A DNA stretch of 64,000 nt. It comes from Kordia aestuariivivens (GTDB taxonomy: Bacteria > Bacteroidota > Bacteroidia > Flavobacteriales > Flavobacteriaceae). The position numbers were made by a program, and so were the translations under genes. The stretch is from positions 558,001 to 622,000 of the forward strand of contig NZ_JACGWS010000001.1 of assembly GCF_014397005.1 (NCBI RefSeq). Direction: 5' to 3'. The notes below the pieces were generated by a model that saw nothing but the letters and a program-made list of their open reading frames with translations, did no database searches and was not told where the DNA came from. Shown here in pieces: positions 8,033 to 58,441 of the stretch; within the stretch, counting starts at the first letter, position 1, and each line of letters begins with the position of its first letter.

Positions 8033-8221
8033 TTGACATGTAGCCATATACACCATTACATTTACATCATCAAAAAAATGAATGCGCATCATTTTGACAA
8101 TGAAATCATAATTTTTAAAAACAGCAAACATGAGATTAGAATACTAAGTCAATTTGAATTTTCGGAATATTTAATCGTAAGGAATGTAAACACTGATGAA
8201 CAAAAAGAAACGGATGTATGA
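8033..8221 (+). CDS. Small ORF preceding the HTH-like pseudogene (degenerate)
   Basis: 62 aa if started at the first ATG; an internal ATG at 8078 is also possible. The end (NTDEQKETDV, stop overlapping the next ATG as ATGA) matches the end of the 37-codon ORF at 26233-26346 (STDEQTGV), and a 23-base stretch of upstream DNA is identical between the two loci. Relative to the second locus the start region appears frameshifted, so this copy is probably decayed. The function is unknown; it may simply be a translational lead-in for the following gene. Confidence 0.35.
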   Translation: MTCSHIHHYIYIIKKMNAHHFDNEIIIFKNSKHEIRILSQFEFSEYLIVRNVNTDEQKETDV

Positions 8222-8483
8222 TACACAAAGAGCAACGGAAAAGGCTAAAAGAAGTATTAGGACACAACTATACAGATAAAGTGTTGAAATTTTAAAGGAG
8301 CAAAAAGTAACCAATAGAAGGGGAACGGCGTATGGAACTTCTATGATACGGAATGTACTCAATGGACTCAACGAAAACAAAGCTATTGAAAACGCCATCC
8401 TAGAACTGTATACCCGAAGTATAGAGAAAACTGAAAAAACGGAGTTACTTAAAAACCAATTATTGGGTATATCCGATTCATAA
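8218..8483 (+). pseudogene. Frameshifted copy of the small HTH-like protein found at 26343
   Basis: The reading frame starts MIHKEQRKRLKEVLGHNYT and aligns codon by codon with the intact 94-aa gene at 26343-26627. After GTG TTG AAA one A is missing, which leads to an immediate TAA. Restoring that base gives a continuous frame (LKEQKVTNRRGTAYGTSMIR, then NVLNGLNENKAIENAILELY) to the TAA at 8481-8483. So this is a single-base frameshift of a small, probably DNA-binding protein. It lies directly upstream of the RiPP operon, in the same order as the intact copy lies upstream of the lipoprotein gene at 27087, and may once have regulated that operon. Confidence 0.75.
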
Positions 8484-8548
8484 AACAGTAATTATATATA
8501 GTTCGTCAACCTCTAAAAAATGTTTTTGAATAAATAAAGACACAAAAA

Positions 8549-8567
8549 ACTCCCGTGAAACGGGAGT
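8549..8567. terminator. Short hairpin terminator
   Basis: ACTCCCG / CGGGAGT with a 5-base loop, after an A-run. It separates the pseudogene from the leader of the RiPP operon. A different hairpin holds the same position at 26902-26929. Confidence 0.6.
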
Positions 8568-8572
8568 CTATA

Positions 8573-8805
8573 ATAAACAAATAAACATTTGCCTATATGA
8601 TGTCGAAAATCAAAGATACATATTTTTTTAAATAGTATCACGGCAAATGTTTATAGAAGGAATGCTTTCCTTTTTATAGTAAATGGTAGTTAGTATTGAG
8701 ATAAGAGATTGAAAAATATCTAAATACTAATATCTCACTACTCATTTCTATGTAACAAGCCGTGGAAACCGAAAAACGTACGAGTAGGTTATACTTAAAT
8801 TAATT
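8573..8805 (+). ncRNA. Conserved structured leader (candidate cis-regulatory RNA), copy a
   Basis: The 230 bases before the GG-peptide gene share blocks with 26927-27083: AATAAACAAATAA, ATCAAAGATA, TATTTTTTTAA, ATCACGGCAAATGTTTAT, and a block near the gene with GAAACCGAAAAACG and GAGTAGG. ATAAACATTTGCC and GGCAAATGTTTAT within the leader are exact complements, and ATCACGG can pair with CCGTGG further on. Two unrelated downstream genes share it, which argues for a regulatory RNA or DNA element and not for a coding relic. No known riboswitch class was recognised. Confidence 0.4.
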
Positions 8806-8809
8806 TAAA

Positions 8810-9037
8810 ATGAGTAAATTATCATTTGAAGCACTTCAACAAAGAGCTGACGAAGTAGTTTCACAAGAACTATTAAATTCTATTTCAGGTGGAACTGAAA
8901 ACGCATGTCATGACGATCCACCACCACCGCCACCACCAGCAGATGATGGTTGTCAACAATGTCAACAAGACGTTGTAACATCACAAGGGACTCATACTCC
9001 ATTGGGAACTTGGTTGGTACATCAGATATATCATTAA
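8810..9037 (+). CDS. GG-leader bacteriocin-like precursor peptide with Asp/Pro-rich core
   Basis: 75 aa. The leader SFEALQQRADEVVSQELLNS ends in ISGG (Gly27-Gly28), the classic site cut by C39 peptidases of exporting ABC transporters, one of which is encoded 3.2 kb downstream. The core (29-75) has three Cys (33, 48, 51), His34-Asp35-Asp36, seven prolines in a row (37-43), Ala-Asp-Asp (44-46) and the tail THTPLGTWLVHQIYH. It is the first gene of an operon-like series with a CPBP protease, an HExxH-type putative peptide hydroxylase, an amidohydrolase and an exporter. The Asp pairs would suit a peptide aspartate hydroxylase (inference). It lies behind a conserved leader. Precursor role confident; product class unknown. 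Confidence 0.88.
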   Translation: MSKLSFEALQQRADEVVSQELLNSISGGTENACHDDPPPPPPPADDGCQQCQQDVVTSQGTHTPLGTWLVHQIYH

Positions 9038-9090
9038 TCTAATGTGAAATGGTGTTCAGTTAGAGAACACCATTTCTAATATTTTTAAGT

Positions 9091-23926: not shown

Positions 23927-24148
23927 TTAACAAGTAGCACCTTGCCTACTAGGACAATTTGTATCTCGCCTTGATTTTTCACCATTTCCTACATCTGGTA
24001 TATCACAACCAGGAGGACAAGTAGCTTTACATGTTTCGGCACATGTATTTTCATCCTTTGTTCTGCCTTCTCCGCCAGTAATACTTGAAGATGTTAAATG
24101 TGCAATCTTAAAAATCTTTAAGTCTAATTTTCTTTTTTTGTTTTTCAT
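23927..24148 (-). CDS. Cys-rich GG-leader peptide, class I lanthipeptide-like precursor
   Basis: 73 aa. The leader KRKLDLKIFKIAHLTSSSIT ends in GG (residues 25-26) and follows closely the flavobacterial class I lanthipeptide leader pattern (K-L-x-L-K-x-x-x-I-A-x-L...I-x-GG). The core contains six cysteines with many Thr/Ser (NTCAETCKATCPPGCDIP, then RDTNCPSRQGATC), spacing suited to thioether or disulfide rings. No lanthionine synthetase gene is in the window; enzymes would have to act in trans, or the cysteines form disulfides. It is preceded by a TPR-AraC regulator and followed by a subtilase, as is the 52-aa peptide at 5861. Precursor nature likely; modification unknown. Confidence 0.82.
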   Translation of the reverse strand: MKNKKRKLDLKIFKIAHLTSSSITGGEGRTKDENTCAETCKATCPPGCDIPDVGNGEKSRRDTNCPSRQGATC

Positions 24149-26232: not shown

Positions 26233-26346
26233 ATGTCATTAGAAAGTTTAATCAATATTGAATTTACAAGATATATAAAAGTACTATTTAGTAGAACTGC
26301 TAGAACTGCTAGAACTGCTAGCACCGACGAACAAACGGGCGTATGA
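26233..26346 (+). CDS. Small ORF ahead of the HTH-like gene
   Basis: 37 codons from the ATG at 26233: MSLESLINIEFTRYIKVLFS, then RTARTARTAS from a 9-bp tandem repeat (AGAACTGCT, 26293-26321), ending TDEQTGV. Its TGA overlaps the start of the next gene (GTATGA), and the end matches the ORF at 8033-8221. Possibly a translational coupler; as a protein it is poorly supported. Confidence 0.35.
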   Translation: MSLESLINIEFTRYIKVLFSRTARTARTASTDEQTGV

Positions 26347-26627
26347 TACACAAGGAACAACGCAAAAAGCTCAAAAAGGTGTTGGGATATCACTACACAA
26401 AAGGTGTGCTAAAAATTTTAAAAGAGAAAAAGATAACCACTAGAAAAGGTACACCTTATGGATCTTCAATGATTCGGAATGTATTTACGGGTCTTAACGA
26501 AAATAAAGACATTGAAAATGCAATAATGGAACTTTTTATTCAAACTCAAGAAGACACTAAAAAAACCTTTGAAAAAAGAAACCAAATACTAGGTTTAGCG
26601 GGTTCAGAAAACAATACTAGCGGTTAA
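26343..26627 (+). CDS. Small HTH-like DNA-binding protein
   Basis: 94 aa, basic N-terminal half: KLKKVLGYHYTKGVLKILKE, then a second helix pair SSMIRNVFTGLNENKDIENA. The layout (helix, turn, recognition-like helix with R-N-V-F-x-G) is like small phage-type repressors; the family name is unknown to me. A frameshifted copy is at 8218-8483. Both copies precede a hairpin, a conserved leader and an exported-protein gene. The gene's last codons already fall in register with the 21-bp repeat array (GGTT at 26601 and 26622), so array and gene overlap. It may bind the array or the leader; this is inference. Confidence 0.7.
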   Translation: MIHKEQRKKLKKVLGYHYTKGVLKILKEKKITTRKGTPYGSSMIRNVFTGLNENKDIENAIMELFIQTQEDTKKTFEKRNQILGLAGSENNTSG

Positions 26628-26887
26628 ATATAGTTGACTTGGGGTTGTACAAAGAATGTTTCGGGTTAGATAAAGAATATTTGGGGTTGATTATAGAAAT
26701 TATGAGGTTCGGTAAGGGCTAATACCCCCCTAAACAACCCCAAATATTAGTTACTGAACCCCAAATATTGGTTACTGAACCTAAAATATGCTTCAATGAA
26801 TCAAAAAGAGATACTTGTAAATGGGGTACATTATATTATTGAACCGTCTTTTATGATAATTCAACCGAAAAGAGATATTACTGAACC
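26601..26887. repeat. Opposed 21-bp-phased GGTT/AACC repeat array
   Basis: GGTT starts at 26601, 26622, 26643, 26664, 26685 and 26706 (exact 21-base steps). After a centre with CGGTAAGGGCTAATACCC the motif flips: AACC (or AATC/AATG) at 26736, 26757, 26778, 26799, 26820, 26842, 26863 and 26884. Between anchors the sequence is AT-rich and only loosely conserved (CAAATATTRGTTACTG). The spacing equals two helical turns, so all anchors face one side of the DNA. A second array of the same design is at 57075-57318. No known element class recognised. Confidence 0.8.
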
Positions 26888-26901
26888 CGAAAAGACATAA
26901 A

Positions 26902-26929
26902 AAAGCTTCTACTAGAAATAGAAGCTTTA
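26902..26929. terminator. Hairpin terminator
   Basis: AAAGCTTCTA / TAGAAGCTTT with a short loop after an A-run, between the repeat array and the conserved leader. Confidence 0.6.
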
Positions 26930-27083
26930 AATAAACAAATAAGCATTCGCCTACTTGAAGTGGAAATCAAAGATAAGTATTTTTTTAATACGCATCACGG
27001 CAAATGTTTATGGAGTGTGCTAATCACTTTAAAACAGTCGTGGAAGCCGAAAGACGAATGAGTAGGCAGATATTAAAAATTAA
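26927..27083 (+). ncRNA. Conserved structured leader (candidate cis-regulatory RNA), copy b
   Basis: Shares with 8573-8805 the ordered blocks AATAAACAAATAA, ATCAAAGATA, TATTTTTTTAA, ATCACGGCAAATGTTTAT, and GAAGCCGAAAGACG with GAGTAGG before the start codon. GCCTACTT and GAGTAGGC inside the leader can pair. It precedes the lipoprotein gene at 27087. Confidence 0.4.
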
Positions 27084-48793: not shown

Positions 48794-50131
48794 TTAAAAT
48801 TCAATCGAATACATATCTGAATAATCTTTTGGAAGTGTAGCACCAATTTCACGTAAATAGTTTCTAAGTCCCGATTTAGATTTGTGACGAGTTATTTGCA
48901 TCAATTGCATAAGCGCACCTTCTTCTGATTTCCCTTGTGTTAATAAATGATTGTAGATGTTTGTTGCAGCAGTATGTCTTATAGAATACAAGGTGTATTC
49001 ATTACTCAAATTCAATGCTTTTTTGACAACTCTAAATTTATTAGAAAAATAATTGGTTTTGTTACCTTCGTCTATATCCCATATCGCAGGTTGCTCAAAT
49101 CGAGTAATTACAAAATCATCGGGTGCATAATTTTCAAGCTTCATTTTACGAATGACATTTTCTAAATCTCCAATAATAGGAACAACCGCTAAAGGTGCTG
49201 TTTTAGAACGTACATACAGTCGTTTCGATTCCAAATCGATATCCTTTACTTGTAGTCTACATACTTCTACATTTCGTAAAAAAGCATACGACATAAATTG
49301 GATGAAGGTTCTGAGGTACGGGTCATTTTTATCAAGGTAATTTCGGATGTCTATGATTTGCTCTTTTGAAAATGGTTTGTTTTTCTTTGGAGTACTTTTG
49401 ACTTGTCTAATTTTAGCAATAAAGTTGTTATCGATAATTTCATCGTCTTCAAGTTGTGCAAATAAAAGTGATAGCGTTGCTCTAAAGTTATTTCTTGTTT
49501 TTAGACTTATTGTCTCAAGTTCTTTGCCTTGTAATATTTCTTTTTTAGTTTGTGCTTTTTTGATCGTGTTTAGGAAAAGAGAAATGTCTCTTTTTTTAAG
49601 ATCTTTTATGTCATTATCTAATAGCTTGTTTTCTTCAAGCCATTTCATAAATTTTTTGTAATGTCCCGTTAGCGTACTTGCCGTTTTCTTTTTCCAACTA
49701 GGTTTTCTTTGTGATAGTGCAAACTCAAGAGCTTCCTTAACGGTGTATTGTTTTCTTTGACTAGCGACTAGCTCTTTTTTAGCAATACTTGGTTTTCTTT
49801 TCTTCTTTTGAGATTCAAGACGTTTGTCAGTAGCTTCTGCATCTTCATACGGACTATATCCCTTTTTTAGCATACTACTTAAAACTACTTTGATCGTGGT
49901 CAAATATTCTAGCCTTGCCGTCTTAGTTTTGAGTTTATTGGCTTCTTTGTAGATGGGAGGTTGCCGTTTCAGCTTTCCTGTTTCGGGATTTCGGTATGAA
50001 AAATAGACATACCAGCGCTTAGAAATATCGCCATTAGCGGTATAAACTTTAGGTTCAGAATAGTGTTTTAAATTACTCAAATCGTATTCATTTTCGTATT
50101 CATTTTTCAATAGTAGTTCAAATATACGCAT
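48794..50131 (-). CDS. Tyrosine-type site-specific recombinase (integrase)
   Basis: 445 aa. N-terminal SAM-like core-binding region (TVKEALEFALSQRKPSWKKK), then the catalytic domain with Arg in AFLRNVEVCRLQVKDID, His-Arg box variant in YSIRHTAATNIY, the second His in ITRHKSKSGLRNYL and a Tyr (RNYLRE or DMY) at the C-terminus. All tetrad positions have plausible residues. It is the outermost gene of the island, 74 bases from the right direct repeat (50205-50227) that matches the lpxK 3' end, and presumably made that insertion. Confidence 0.92.
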   Translation of the reverse strand: MRIFELLLKNEYENEYDLSNLKHYSEPKVYTANGDISKRWYVYFSYRNPETGKLKRQPPIYKEANKLKTKTARLEYLTTIKVVLSSMLKKGYSPYEDAEATDKRLESQKKKRKPSIAKKELVASQRKQYTVKEALEFALSQRKPSWKKKTASTLTGHYKKFMKWLEENKLLDNDIKDLKKRDISLFLNTIKKAQTKKEILQGKELETISLKTRNNFRATLSLLFAQLEDDEIIDNNFIAKIRQVKSTPKKNKPFSKEQIIDIRNYLDKNDPYLRTFIQFMSYAFLRNVEVCRLQVKDIDLESKRLYVRSKTAPLAVVPIIGDLENVIRKMKLENYAPDDFVITRFEQPAIWDIDEGNKTNYFSNKFRVVKKALNLSNEYTLYSIRHTAATNIYNHLLTQGKSEEGALMQLMQITRHKSKSGLRNYLREIGATLPKDYSDMYSIEF

Positions 50132-54002: not shown

Positions 54003-56915
54003 TTAAATATCCTTCATAACCTTCTCAACAATCTTCGTCAATTGCTCATCCAAAATTCCTTTTCTTTTCGCTTCTTTAAGATTAATAATATACTCTTCTA
54101 GATTACTTGTAGTTTCATTCTTTTCTTTGTGATACGAAGCATATTGAAAAGAGGCAAGTTTTAAAATACTCTTCTGTTTAGAATTCATAGTTGATTCATC
54201 AAAATTCTCCAAACCAGGAAACTTACTAACAATCACACAAAGCACTTTTTTAGGAGAACCTTCTGCAATTGCATTCATCGTATTAATGACTTCTTTGTCT
54301 AATATATATTGTGAATTAAAAAAATTAATCGACAACATAAAAATGACCAAATCACTTTCTTCCAATTCCTTTTGAATCTGATCGTGCCATTTGCCAATCG
54401 TAATATCTTCACAACTCCAATTATCGGCAACATCAAAGATTTTAAGCATATTTAAGTGCTTTCGCAATTCGTCTTTATATTCCACATCTTTTCGCGAATA
54501 GGAAATAAATATCTTCTTCATCTTTTTAATGTTTTTATTGTTGGTAAAATTGCGGTATTTGTAACTGCGTTGTGTTCTTCCTGCGGTTTTGTCCAAATCA
54601 ATTTGATTTTCCTTCATTGGAAATGCTTGAATCTGTTCCTGTGTTTTTTCGGAATTATCTAAGGTATTATAATGCACAAAGTGTTCTCCATCAGTGGAAA
54701 GGTATAAGTCTTCGGGTTTTTTTAGATTATTGAATTCATCTCGTAAAGTATTTTCAGTAATCCTTTCTTTTTTCTTTTTAAATAAAGAATCTTCATTTCT
54801 ATGATCTACTTCTTTATTTTTATCTTGGATTTTTTCATGCAAAGTCCTTCCCCAATACAACAAAATAATCTCCATGAAAATTGTACGAATACAATCGTTC
54901 AGTGTTGGATCTTTTGTAGTTTGCGGGTTGATGGAAACTGAAATGGTTAGTTTAGAAAAATCCAATTGAATCCAAACTTTAAAGCGATCATTTAAGGTGA
55001 AAATCAACTGATCTCGCCAATAGTGTTTCTTATCAGGATTCTGTCCATAATGACAAATCAATTGATTGATCAAACCAAACGGAATAAAGCGTTCAAATTT
55101 TAAAACAAATGTAGGTTTGTTAAAATCAAACTTCAATAAATCATAAACTTCAGCATCTTCACTTGTTAATGGTAAATAGTTGGGAATGATATATTCATCA
55201 TTTCCTTTATCAAAAAACAACACTTTCTCGTTACGTAATAAGCGTTCTATTTTGTTTGGAATATCTAACTTTTGAAATTCTTTTGTAGTGAGTTTTCCTT
55301 TGTATTCTTCGATGTTTTCTTTGTTTAAAATTGTGTCATGAATCTTAGCAACAGTTGCGGCAGGATTTAGCCAAGCAACATCATTTAAGTCTTCATCATT
55401 TTTATAATATAATAGCATTCCTTTACGTGCCAATTGCTCCAAATCTTCTCTTAAATATTTTTTTCTTTCAGCTAAAGAAAGTTCTTCTCTTTTATAGTAT
55501 TTCACAATTGTATCTAATGAAATAGCATCGTCATTTTTTTTATTGAGAATATAACTCAAAAATTCTGGATACCATTTCGGAACTTCTTTTTTGGAAGATT
55601 GATTTTCTACAACATCCCAAAATGTAGCTGTCAAATACTGTAAAGAGGCTGTGTTTCGGGACGTTTTAGAATCAGCGTTTAATGAAACATGAAATTCATC
55701 GACTACATTATTTTCATTAAAAGCTTCGTTCCAATTATGTTTTGCTTTGTTTTCATCTGCATGTGTTTGTATTAATAGTAATGGATCATCGTATTTTTCG
55801 AGCGTATCAAATCTTTTTAGAAACGAATATTGTAATTGAGCGAGCCAATACATACGGTTGTAATTTCGTGTAGGCAGCTTGTTACTATCGCTTTCTAATA
55901 ATATATTGGAATCACTTTTTGGATTCCAAACCAATAGATTAAATGCTTCGTTCGTAAAAAAAGCTTGATAGATGCCATGATAATAATCTTGCCCACCAAA
56001 GTCATAATAAATTGCTTTTGGTAATTCATAATTTATAGTTTTCTTTGAATGTTGAACCGACAACACATGCGTGCTCGAGTTTTTGTTTTTGTCAATTTTA
56101 GTGCATTGTTTTGTTTGTAGATACTTTAATAAGGTAGATTTTCCTGAAAAATGGTTCCCTAATAACATCACTTTTACTGGAAGTTGTATGGATGTTTGTT
56201 GCTCTTGTAGTTTTTGCAATTCACTTTTAATGATTGCTAAATTATTGTTATTTGGTTTTAAATTTAAATCAAGTTCTGCCGCAAAGGGGTTTCCTCCAAT
56301 GTATAGAGATCTTAAATTCTTATTTTTTAAAAAAAATGCAATATGTTGGATTTTAAAAATTTTATTATTCCCAATATTTAGATGAGAATTAGTAGTCAAA
56401 AAATCTAAGTTTTCAATTTTTGAAATCTGATTATTGAGAAGTATTAAATTTGAAAGATTAGTTAATTTTTCAAGGTTTTCAATTTTCGAAATTTGGTTAT
56501 TATTTAAATATAATTTTGTTAGACTAGTTAATTTCTCAAGATTTTCAATTTTCGAAATTTTATTATGAGAAACACTTAACTCAATAAGATTTATGAGATT
56601 TTCAAGGTTTTCAATTTTCGAGATTTGATTATATGAAATATCTAATTCAGAAAGATTAGTTAGTTTTTCAAGGTTTTCAATTTTAGTAATTCGATTATGG
56701 GCAAGAGATAATTTTTCTAATTGTGTAAACTTTTCAAGGCTTTTTATTTCTGAAATTCCATTTTCTCTGAGATTAAGTCCAATTACTTGCGCATTCGCAT
56801 TTAAAAGATATAGATTTTTTTTATCCCAATGAGTTATATATCTTTCTTCTTTCGTTTCCGTTAGTGAAATATTATAAACTTTCTCTAACTCTAAAATCTC
56901 TTGTGGTTTGCTCAT
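54003..56915 (-). CDS. LRR-Roc-COR-type GTPase with C-terminal TIR domain
   Basis: 970 aa. Residues 40-215: seven leucine-rich repeats of the 22-residue form LEKLTNLSELDISYNQISKI. Residues 246-430: Roc GTPase with P-loop GNHFSGKST (253-261), DFGGQ (305-309) and LIQTHADE as the G4-like motif. Residues 430-760: COR-like region. Residues 799-930: TIR domain (KKIFISYSRKDVEYKDELRK, ITIGKWHDQIQKELEESDLVIFM), in which Glu residues are present as in TIR NADases. Such fusions are bacterial relatives of LRRK2-type proteins; TIR domains in bacteria often act in immunity or NAD consumption. No partner gene is adjacent. Domain reading is firm, function inferred. Confidence 0.85.
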   Translation of the reverse strand: MSKPQEILELEKVYNISLTETKEERYITHWDKKNLYLLNANAQVIGLNLRENGISEIKSLEKFTQLEKLSLAHNRITKIENLEKLTNLSELDISYNQISKIENLENLINLIELSVSHNKISKIENLEKLTSLTKLYLNNNQISKIENLEKLTNLSNLILLNNQISKIENLDFLTTNSHLNIGNNKIFKIQHIAFFLKNKNLRSLYIGGNPFAAELDLNLKPNNNNLAIIKSELQKLQEQQTSIQLPVKVMLLGNHFSGKSTLLKYLQTKQCTKIDKNKNSSTHVLSVQHSKKTINYELPKAIYYDFGGQDYYHGIYQAFFTNEAFNLLVWNPKSDSNILLESDSNKLPTRNYNRMYWLAQLQYSFLKRFDTLEKYDDPLLLIQTHADENKAKHNWNEAFNENNVVDEFHVSLNADSKTSRNTASLQYLTATFWDVVENQSSKKEVPKWYPEFLSYILNKKNDDAISLDTIVKYYKREELSLAERKKYLREDLEQLARKGMLLYYKNDEDLNDVAWLNPAATVAKIHDTILNKENIEEYKGKLTTKEFQKLDIPNKIERLLRNEKVLFFDKGNDEYIIPNYLPLTSEDAEVYDLLKFDFNKPTFVLKFERFIPFGLINQLICHYGQNPDKKHYWRDQLIFTLNDRFKVWIQLDFSKLTISVSINPQTTKDPTLNDCIRTIFMEIILLYWGRTLHEKIQDKNKEVDHRNEDSLFKKKKERITENTLRDEFNNLKKPEDLYLSTDGEHFVHYNTLDNSEKTQEQIQAFPMKENQIDLDKTAGRTQRSYKYRNFTNNKNIKKMKKIFISYSRKDVEYKDELRKHLNMLKIFDVADNWSCEDITIGKWHDQIQKELEESDLVIFMLSINFFNSQYILDKEVINTMNAIAEGSPKKVLCVIVSKFPGLENFDESTMNSKQKSILKLASFQYASYHKEKNETTSNLEEYIINLKEAKRKGILDEQLTKIVEKVMKDI

Positions 56916-57074: not shown

Positions 57075-57318
57075 CGTTGATTAATCACTCTTTTAGGTTG
57101 GTTCATCATTCGTTGTGGTTATTGAAATAATTCTTTTCGGTTGTTTGCTCAATTTTTTCGGTTGTTTGTCCTTTATTTTAGGTTCCGTAAGGGGTAAAAG
57201 CGGTTGGTGAACCCCATAATTTCTATAATCAACCGAAAGTATTCTTTATGCAACCCTAAATATTCTATATATAACCATAAGGATGTTATAGACAACGTCA
57301 ATATTTCTATAATGAACG
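57075..57318. repeat. Opposed 21-bp-phased GGTT/AACC repeat array, second copy
   Basis: (C/G)GTT at 57075, 57096, 57117, 57139, 57160 and 57181, a centre with CCGTAAGGGGTAA, then AACC (or AACG) at 57210, 57231, 57252, 57273, 57294 and 57315; steps of 21 with a single 22. Same design and centre as 26601-26887. It lies outside the island, between the TIR protein gene and lipA. Nothing else is seen in 56916-57345. Confidence 0.8.
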
Positions 57319-57565: not shown

Positions 57566-58441
57566 TTACAATATATGTTTATGCGCTTTATAAGACGAAC
57601 GTACCAACGCGCCACTTTCCACATGACGGAAACCTAATTCTAAACCAATCTCACGGTATTTGTCAAACTGAGCTGGTGTAATAAATTCTTGTACTGGTAA
57701 ATGCTTCTTACTAGGTTGTAAATATTGTCCAAGTGTAACTACATCCACATTTACTGCGCTTAAATCGTGCAGTGTCTGAATCACTTCATCTTCTGTTTCA
57801 CCCAAACCTAGCATAATACCCGATTTTGTACGATTTATTCCTTGGTCTTTCAAATACTTCAACACACCCAAACTACGATCGTATTTCGCTTGTATGCGTA
57901 CTTCACGCGTCAAACGACGAACGGTTTCCATATTATGTGAGACCACTTCTGGAGCTACTTCTACAATTCTGTCTAAATGACGTTCAATTCCTTGGAAATC
58001 TGGAATCAAGGTTTCCAACGTTGTGGTAGGATTCATTCGGCGTACAGCTTTCACTGTTTCTGCCCAAATAATAGTTCCCATATCTTTCAAATCATCACGA
58101 TCCACCGAAGTCAAAACCGCGTGTTTAATTTGCATAATCTTTATAGAACGCGCTACTTTCTCAGGTTCGTCCCAAGCAACCGTTTCTGGTCGTCCGGTTT
58201 TCACACCACAAAATCCGCAAGAACGTGTACAAACGTTTCCTAAAATCATAAACGTTGCCGTTCCTTCACCCCAACATTCGCCCATATTTGGACAACTTCC
58301 CGACGCACAAATCGTATTTAATTTGTATTTATCTACCAATCCACGAAGTTCTGTATATTTCTTTCCTGTTGGAAGTTTCACCCGAAGCCATTTCGGTTTT
58401 CCTTTTGGTGGCAATACACTTGCAGTTGTGTCTGTACTCAT
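57566..58441 (-). CDS. lipA: Lipoyl synthase
   Basis: 291 aa. The N-terminal cysteines of the auxiliary cluster are in [20 protein letters not shown], the radical SAM cluster in [13 protein letters not shown], and the C-terminal RSSY motif in [10 protein letters not shown]; all are diagnostic. LipA inserts two sulfur atoms into octanoyl groups on lipoyl domains of dehydrogenase complexes. Start chosen at the ATG giving [20 protein letters not shown], the family's usual beginning. Confidence 0.97.

Follow-up and report, generated by a model that had tools for sequence, protein, structure and literature searches.

The locus described here raises a simple question: what is served by a series of GGTT tetranucleotides, repeated every 21 bp, that meets an oppositely oriented series of AACC tetranucleotides across a common centre? 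By 'the window' we mean the whole stretch of Kordia DNA that was analysed, 64,000 nucleotides in length; the coordinates of its features are collected in Table 1. The six GGTT anchors that the original prediction placed in the left arm were recovered in five exact 21-bp steps, with starts at 26601, 26622, 26643, 26664, 26685 and 26706. The right arm had been read as eight AACC-type anchors, and this held for six exact copies of AACC, starting at 26736, 26757, 26778, 26842, 26863 and 26884; the two mid-arm positions at 26799 and 26820 read AATC and AATG and are anchor-less, and the single 22-bp step of the arm is located there. The G/C-rich centre reads GGTTCGGTAAGGGCTAATACCCCCCTAAACAACC.

Table 1. 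Positions of the arrays and associated genes within the 64,000-nucleotide window.
Feature	Coordinates	Strand
Gene B pseudogene copy; no array seen behind it	8218..8483	+
Gene A deletion remnant, 37 aa	26233..26346	+
Gene B, 94 aa; overlaps stop of gene A remnant	26343..26627	+
Left arm, six GGTT units of 21 bp	26601..26726	+
Centre, imperfect palindrome GGTT ... AAGGG ... CCCCCC ... AACC	26706..26739	.
Right arm, AACC units at 21 bp (six exact)	26736..26887	-
GGGG at skipped right-arm position	26823..26826	+
LRR-Roc-COR-TIR protein, 970 aa; adjoins second array	54003..56915	-
Second array, six GGTT and four AACC, without gene A or gene B	57096..57276	+

The 21-bp phase starts, as had been noted, within the 3' end of a small ORF, here called gene B, which holds the first two anchors. 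The pattern stands well clear of a shuffled-sequence control: the window array has a chain score of 6, and no score above 2.4 arose when the entire 64-kb window was shuffled 100 times with its dinucleotides preserved. Nor is the design confined to this position, because a second array is present in the window and two more elsewhere in the genome (C2 and C43). We agree that the array is not a CRISPR: it has no constant repeat, its 21-bp units share 4-bp anchors with the rest partly conserved, and its arms are opposed. Among the ORFs listed around both window arrays no cas genes were seen by eye. A period of 21 bp corresponds to two turns of B-DNA; it also corresponds to seven codons, and the array might therefore encode a heptapeptide-repeat protein. 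Some arrays are indeed open in one frame with 7-residue repeats (ORFs in L259, L261, L263, L269 and L272), but for the window arrays coding of this kind was rejected, as both contain stops in all six frames and have opposed arms. Elsewhere the frame is broken by 22-, 43- and 44-bp steps, and the open frames lie on either strand, so that we regard a coding function as very improbable.

We then searched 11 Kordia genomes for three consecutive GGTT at 21-bp spacing. The resulting catalogue contains 25 arrays in eight of the 11 genomes (four each in G000, G002 and G003, three each in G004, G006 and G010, and two each in G005 and G009), and is a biased sample because its members were found by pattern. 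Heptamer runs and apparently coding or single-arm matches were dropped by eye (both matches in G001; 1959464 and 2218274 in G002; C165 in G003; C7 in G006; C2, L088, in G008; and C6, L066, in G000). A central GGTT...AACC pair is present in all 25 arrays, with a length of 25 or 26 nt in 24 of them and 24 nt in the other, within the range of 24–27 nt covered by the script; support for the pair from phased neighbours is weak in one array (G2_2763). This spacing is constrained in part because the units themselves have the dyad form GGTT-N3/4-AACC. Both arms share one unit consensus, about GGTT(C/G/A)NNTAANGATTNWWWGC. The fourth right anchor is skipped and the series then resumed in 14 of the 25 arrays, and is present in six; in five no later anchor follows. 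Within the right-arm gap an AGGG(G)-TA(A) site was often seen by eye, and in several copies its place corresponds.

Opposed arms are mainly a Kordia feature. A search of the family matched 11 of 397 genomes, nine of them outside Kordia; of these nine, G383 alone was judged real from its sequence. The centre pattern occurs in 44 stretches of the genome contigs, and the six that pass the chain test (L162, L171, L178, L181, L188 and L190) are all from Kordia, the remainder being treated as chance or other repeats. Among 15 four-anchor stretches in viral contigs only L197 and L202 pass the chain test, and these we take for coding repeats because they lie inside ORFs with no gene A (see below) nearby.

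Could the arrays be passive minisatellites, slippage-prone and functionless, that grow in 21-bp units behind one gene family? Slippage homogenizes tandem arrays, and either slippage or hairpins could yield dyad-symmetric tandem units; unit sequence also turns over quickly, even inside Kordia (L304 and L308). However, in homologous arrays the anchors are 95% identical (437/458), compared with 71% (1935/2718) for other positions, in counts drawn from six homologous pairs, each counted both ways and with one array in two pairs. The skipped-unit layout described above recurs, a period near 21 and the dyads persist across different unit sequences, and the arrays are tied to one gene family across the phylum. 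We therefore consider a passive origin improbable.

That gene family, gene A, is represented beside the window array by a remnant in which an internal deletion has fused the beginning of a 162-aa protein (MSLESLINIEFT) to its end (KVLFSRTARTA...). An intact 162-aa gene A is present in the same genome (G000:C43; L007:7620-8108), where it is followed by gene B and then by an array. Within the remnant we also observed a 9-bp tandem repeat, TAGAACTGC, of 3.3 copies (window 26292-26321). Proteins of the gene A family are about 160 aa long and acidic (pI 4.6-6.9), and are not typical DNA binders; an all-helical structure with one 55-residue helix is predicted (AF2 mean pLDDT 85.2). Pfam gave weak scattered matches in one to three of 14 members (best E 0.0016), PHROG one match to a family of unassigned function (E 0.0014), and sequence and fold searches of the PDB no significant match; one intact protein that was scanned had no match in NCBIfam (E<=0.1) or PADLOC (E<=0.01). 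A single-sequence search recovered gene A from nine of 397 genomes in the family, and a profile search, patchily, from 29 of 355 Bacteroidota genomes. Phage or plasmid origin was rejected, as genes A and B have no match in phage and plasmid collections, and gene A was likewise not recovered from viral contigs when these were searched by pattern. Tandem pairs of gene A occur twice (L211 and L259, the latter being one locus with L298, so that there are two pairs and not three), and in both the array follows the second gene only. In two genomes of one genus (g280; L270 and L271) gene A lies between ORFs that look to us like cas2/cas1 on the one side and cas4 on the other.

Gene A and a 3' 21-bp array tend to recur together across the Bacteroidota. 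We measured the z-score of the 21-bp autocorrelation in the 350 bp behind gene A, or behind the last gene of a tandem, for 45 flanks from 20 genomes. The score exceeded 3 in 25 of the 45 gene A flanks, leaving 20 that did not; among 60 control flanks it did so in five (Fisher P 1.5e-7). The control set excludes flanks near gene A matches and often enters coding sequence. Among its five positives are L228, whose array looks genuine, and two loci in which gene A is either broken or without a clean ORF (L277 and L269). A smaller earlier count gave 17/32 compared with 3/20, those 20 controls containing a second tandem gene A. The top period was 21, 22, 42, 43 or 44 in 33/45 gene A flanks and 18/60 controls, although top period by itself is a weak sign because 129 of 1275 windows across the whole 64-kb window have a top period of 21 or 42. 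Nine Kordia copies of gene A have enough flank for this measurement, and in seven of them the 21-bp period follows the gene at z>=4.9; of the remaining two, one is divergent and one broken, and five further loci were too short. In another genus, G383 has a gene A homologue of 33% identity with a GGTTNNNAACCCCAAATTTGG-type array immediately after it, and in a third, G261 (L212) has a weaker array with a AGGGGGTAAAT centre.

The units differ between loci, between genera and even between paralogues within one genome, and in some lineages the period is 43 or 22/44 bp. Of 20 arrays examined for dyad symmetry of the folded units, 15 nevertheless showed it (P<=0.03) and five did not at that level. 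What recurs behind gene A is thus the period and the symmetry, each locus having its own unit sequence.

Gene B encodes a protein that is basic (pI 9.9) and HTH-like, with an all-helical AF2 prediction (mean pLDDT 90.5; helices 4-14, 18-28, 41-49 and 55-82), belongs to no Pfam family, and gave no significant match in a PDB fold search. It was found in all 11 Kordia genomes. Because its profile has no match in G383 (76% complete) or G261, which belong to other genera and have arrays, we ruled it out as an obligatory array partner in general. At L228:781-1010, from another genus, a 21-bp array of the TAAAAAACGCACGAGGAGCCG type does have a homologue of gene B nearby, and the 3-kb locus contains no gene A. 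Gene B is a possible binder of the array in Kordia only.

Several further features were observed near the arrays. A sequence like the DUF805b RNA motif (RF02914) is located at window 27037-27068, where its 27 bits (E 1.8e-5) fall short of the 35.6 set for gathering; the same conserved sequence is present at window 8761-8788 and at several gene A/B cassette loci, and in the cassette loci viewed it precedes lipoprotein genes. Directly behind the array, on the minus strand of window 26896-26960, is a promoter-like sequence, which we take to be a TANNTTTG-type motif, followed by a hairpin and a T-run; this block would be predicted to produce a short minus-strand RNA, and similar blocks were seen by eye in L002, L029 and window 8545-8630. 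Window 23927-24148 (-) and about 8811-9038 (+) hold small ORFs that have GG-type leaders (ITGG, ISGG) and resemble precursors of ribosomally made peptides; nearby are TPR-AraC genes (Pfam HTH_18, TPR) and genes that we assume encode S8-like peptidases.

Does the array act as RNA or as DNA? Locus-specific repeats that adjoin a small protein gene are reminiscent of type III toxin-antitoxin systems, in which the repeats form an RNA, and the array could be transcribed as a structured repeat RNA, for example one with hairpins in tandem to which protein A would bind. No terminator separates gene B from the window array that immediately follows it, and in 31 arrays the folding energies were below those of dinucleotide shuffles. 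The folding z was, however, the same on the two strands (-3.26 compared with -3.37), and although the raw folding energy was lower on the plus strand (P=0.036), this difference was gone after the control for composition. A long hairpin formed by both arms was also rejected, since pairing of spacers between the arms was no better in register (0.480) than out of register (0.474; P=0.33). Of 47 deduplicated gene A flanks, 26 have a terminator-like hairpin no more than 130 bp behind the gene, as do 40 of 235 shuffles. Such hairpins are present in 13 of the 25 periodic flanks (z>3), so that in a fair share of the lineages the array is not co-transcribed with gene A. Within the window there were no Rfam 15 matches at gathering score. 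We judge an RNA role to be improbable, if slightly less so than a passive minisatellite. Strand-equal folding, spacers that do not pair in register and the two-turn period together favour double-stranded DNA with a dimeric protein.

We then considered which genes adjoin the Kordia arrays. Ten of the 25 arrays are in the gene A/B cassette or its lipoprotein context, six adjoin LRR-Roc-TIR genes, two NACHT genes (one orthologous site), one an NB-ARC-TPR gene and one a HEPN/GmrSD pair; one lies in a nucleotidyltransferase and radical-SAM neighbourhood, the nucleotidyltransferase being below the Pfam cut-off, and four are beside other genes. Pfam was run on ten neighbour proteins. The arrays are linked to LRR-Roc-TIR genes: six of the 11 homologues found in Kordia have an adjoining array, on the 3' side in five and on the 5' side in the window, this being the one association that was counted against the homologues found in the genus. 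The L078 copy is outside this count, having been found via its array; in L118 the LRR-Roc-TIR gene is broken and the array assignment rests on the chain test, and in L127 one side ends at a contig end. The 970-aa protein beside the second window array matches Pfam LRR_4, Roc and TIR_2 above cut-off and COR-A below it, and its PADLOC match is a ThsB-like TIR. The second array is located between its gene and a gene at 57566-58441 (-) that we take to be lipA; an ORF at 48794-50131 looks recombinase-like. In Kordia, the stretch between the flanking genes, by our assumption GAPDH-like and lipA-like, varies (L116-L123, L080 and L083), containing a two-component-like operon, LRR-Roc-TIR or other genes, and it also holds other dispersed repeats.

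These neighbourhoods are what might be expected of a recombination or insertion site, recognized by its structure at the 3' end of gene cassettes and used for capture or exchange, like attC or the end arrays of transposons. Arrays lie 3' of gene A and of five of the six LRR-Roc-TIR genes that adjoin catalogued arrays, orthologous positions hold different genes (a CutC-like neighbourhood in L065/L069, and the lipA-like side), gene A is patchy (29/355 genomes), and symmetry persists through sequence change. Yet no clean insertion boundary was evident by eye, and in the arrays viewed neither transposon-end or MITE termini nor target-site duplications were seen; on the lipA side the borders are blurred because the array-free regions are full of other repeats. 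The anchors, moreover, stay in place between orthologues, and with up to 14 phased units the arrays are far larger than attC or a simple terminal repeat. We think such a role unlikely, though less so than transcription of the array as an RNA.

The reading that we favour, at about an even chance of being right, is that Bacteroidota carry a two-part unit whose non-coding half, the array, acts as protein-bound double-stranded DNA. The unit would consist of gene A, encoding a small, acidic and helical protein, and a 3' array with largely dyad-symmetric units in two-turn phasing, each locus having a unit sequence of its own and only period and symmetry recurring. A dimeric protein matched to the local unit would occupy one face of the helix at intervals of two turns, and cooperative assembly would then produce a nucleoprotein segment; in the Kordia form two such assemblies would be opposed across the G/C-rich centre. 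The array at 26601-26887 would be a site of this type at which gene A has been cut to a remnant and gene B may be the local binder; in Kordia, free copies have come to adjoin immune-type genes. We infer the protein binding and the assembly from the pattern of the sequence. One-face assembly of a protein had been proposed from the phasing of the window array; it accommodates the persistence of phasing despite sequence change, the dyads, the conserved anchors and the equal folding of the two strands, and the binder itself, like any loop or wrap of the DNA, is putative.

Because free copies lie beside immune-type genes, we suppose, from their position alone, that the nucleoprotein segment may insulate or silence adjacent genes, or mark them. 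A bolder reading would make the whole a kind of chromosomal element new to the Bacteroidota. Here each gene A would be matched to an array of its own, the DNA being read by geometry (two-turn phasing and dyad symmetry), with a sequence private to each locus as if to prevent cross-reaction between paralogues; the Kordia array would have been freed and would organize immune-gene loci. This is offered tentatively, and we think it somewhat more likely to be wrong than right.

How does such an element compare with known systems, of which partition or replication iterons and transposon-end arrays come nearest in design? Partition centromeres (ParR/parC, omega/parS) and replication iterons are short phased sites in tandem or opposed arrangement that diverge rapidly and lie beside a small protein gene. 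The helically phased short repeats described here, with their putative binding protein, are similar, whereas the present arrays are chromosomal, occur in several copies per genome and lie beside immune-type genes; around the 25 Kordia arrays and the gene A loci we found by eye no gene for a partition ATPase/NTPase or for replication. The end arrays of Tn7 consist of protein-binding TnsB repeats of ~21-22 bp in opposite orientation. Repeated and opposed units are common to both, but here the arms abut at one centre and flank no cargo, and no bounded element was seen. In the attC sites of integrons symmetry is conserved above sequence, 3' of variable genes, in one folded site. The arrays share the symmetry over sequence and the 3' position, but have up to 14 units at 21 bp, and no cassette boundaries were found, the lipA-side comparison being blurred by other repeats. 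Type III toxin-antitoxin repeat RNAs are likewise locus-specific tandem repeats beside a small protein gene; unlike them, the arrays lie behind the gene, often behind a terminator, and show no strand-specific folding.

A further parallel is with PARCELs, palindromic amphipathic repeat coding elements, whose 75-nt units code for 25-residue repeats (PMC2996958). PARCELs and the arrays are both tandem imperfect palindromes that are dispersed and diverge in sequence, but the window arrays have 21-bp units and are non-coding (PMC2996958). We found no description of such arrays in the literature, in a search for which subscription papers were mostly outside the scope, so that absence from print is unproven. 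The combination of a gene family with a two-turn period and symmetry without conserved sequence was rated as categorically new, its function being putative.

If the protein-bound DNA reading is correct, the arrays would be a phylum-wide class of non-coding element tied to an unnamed protein family. Because the class would be defined by period and symmetry instead of sequence, it would escape similarity searches. It would also provide a natural system in which to follow the co-evolution of helical phasing and dimeric specificity. In Kordia, the arrays would mark the neighbourhoods of NLR-like genes (LRR-Roc-TIR, NACHT and NB-ARC), and may thereby offer a handle on the regulation or exchange of such genes.
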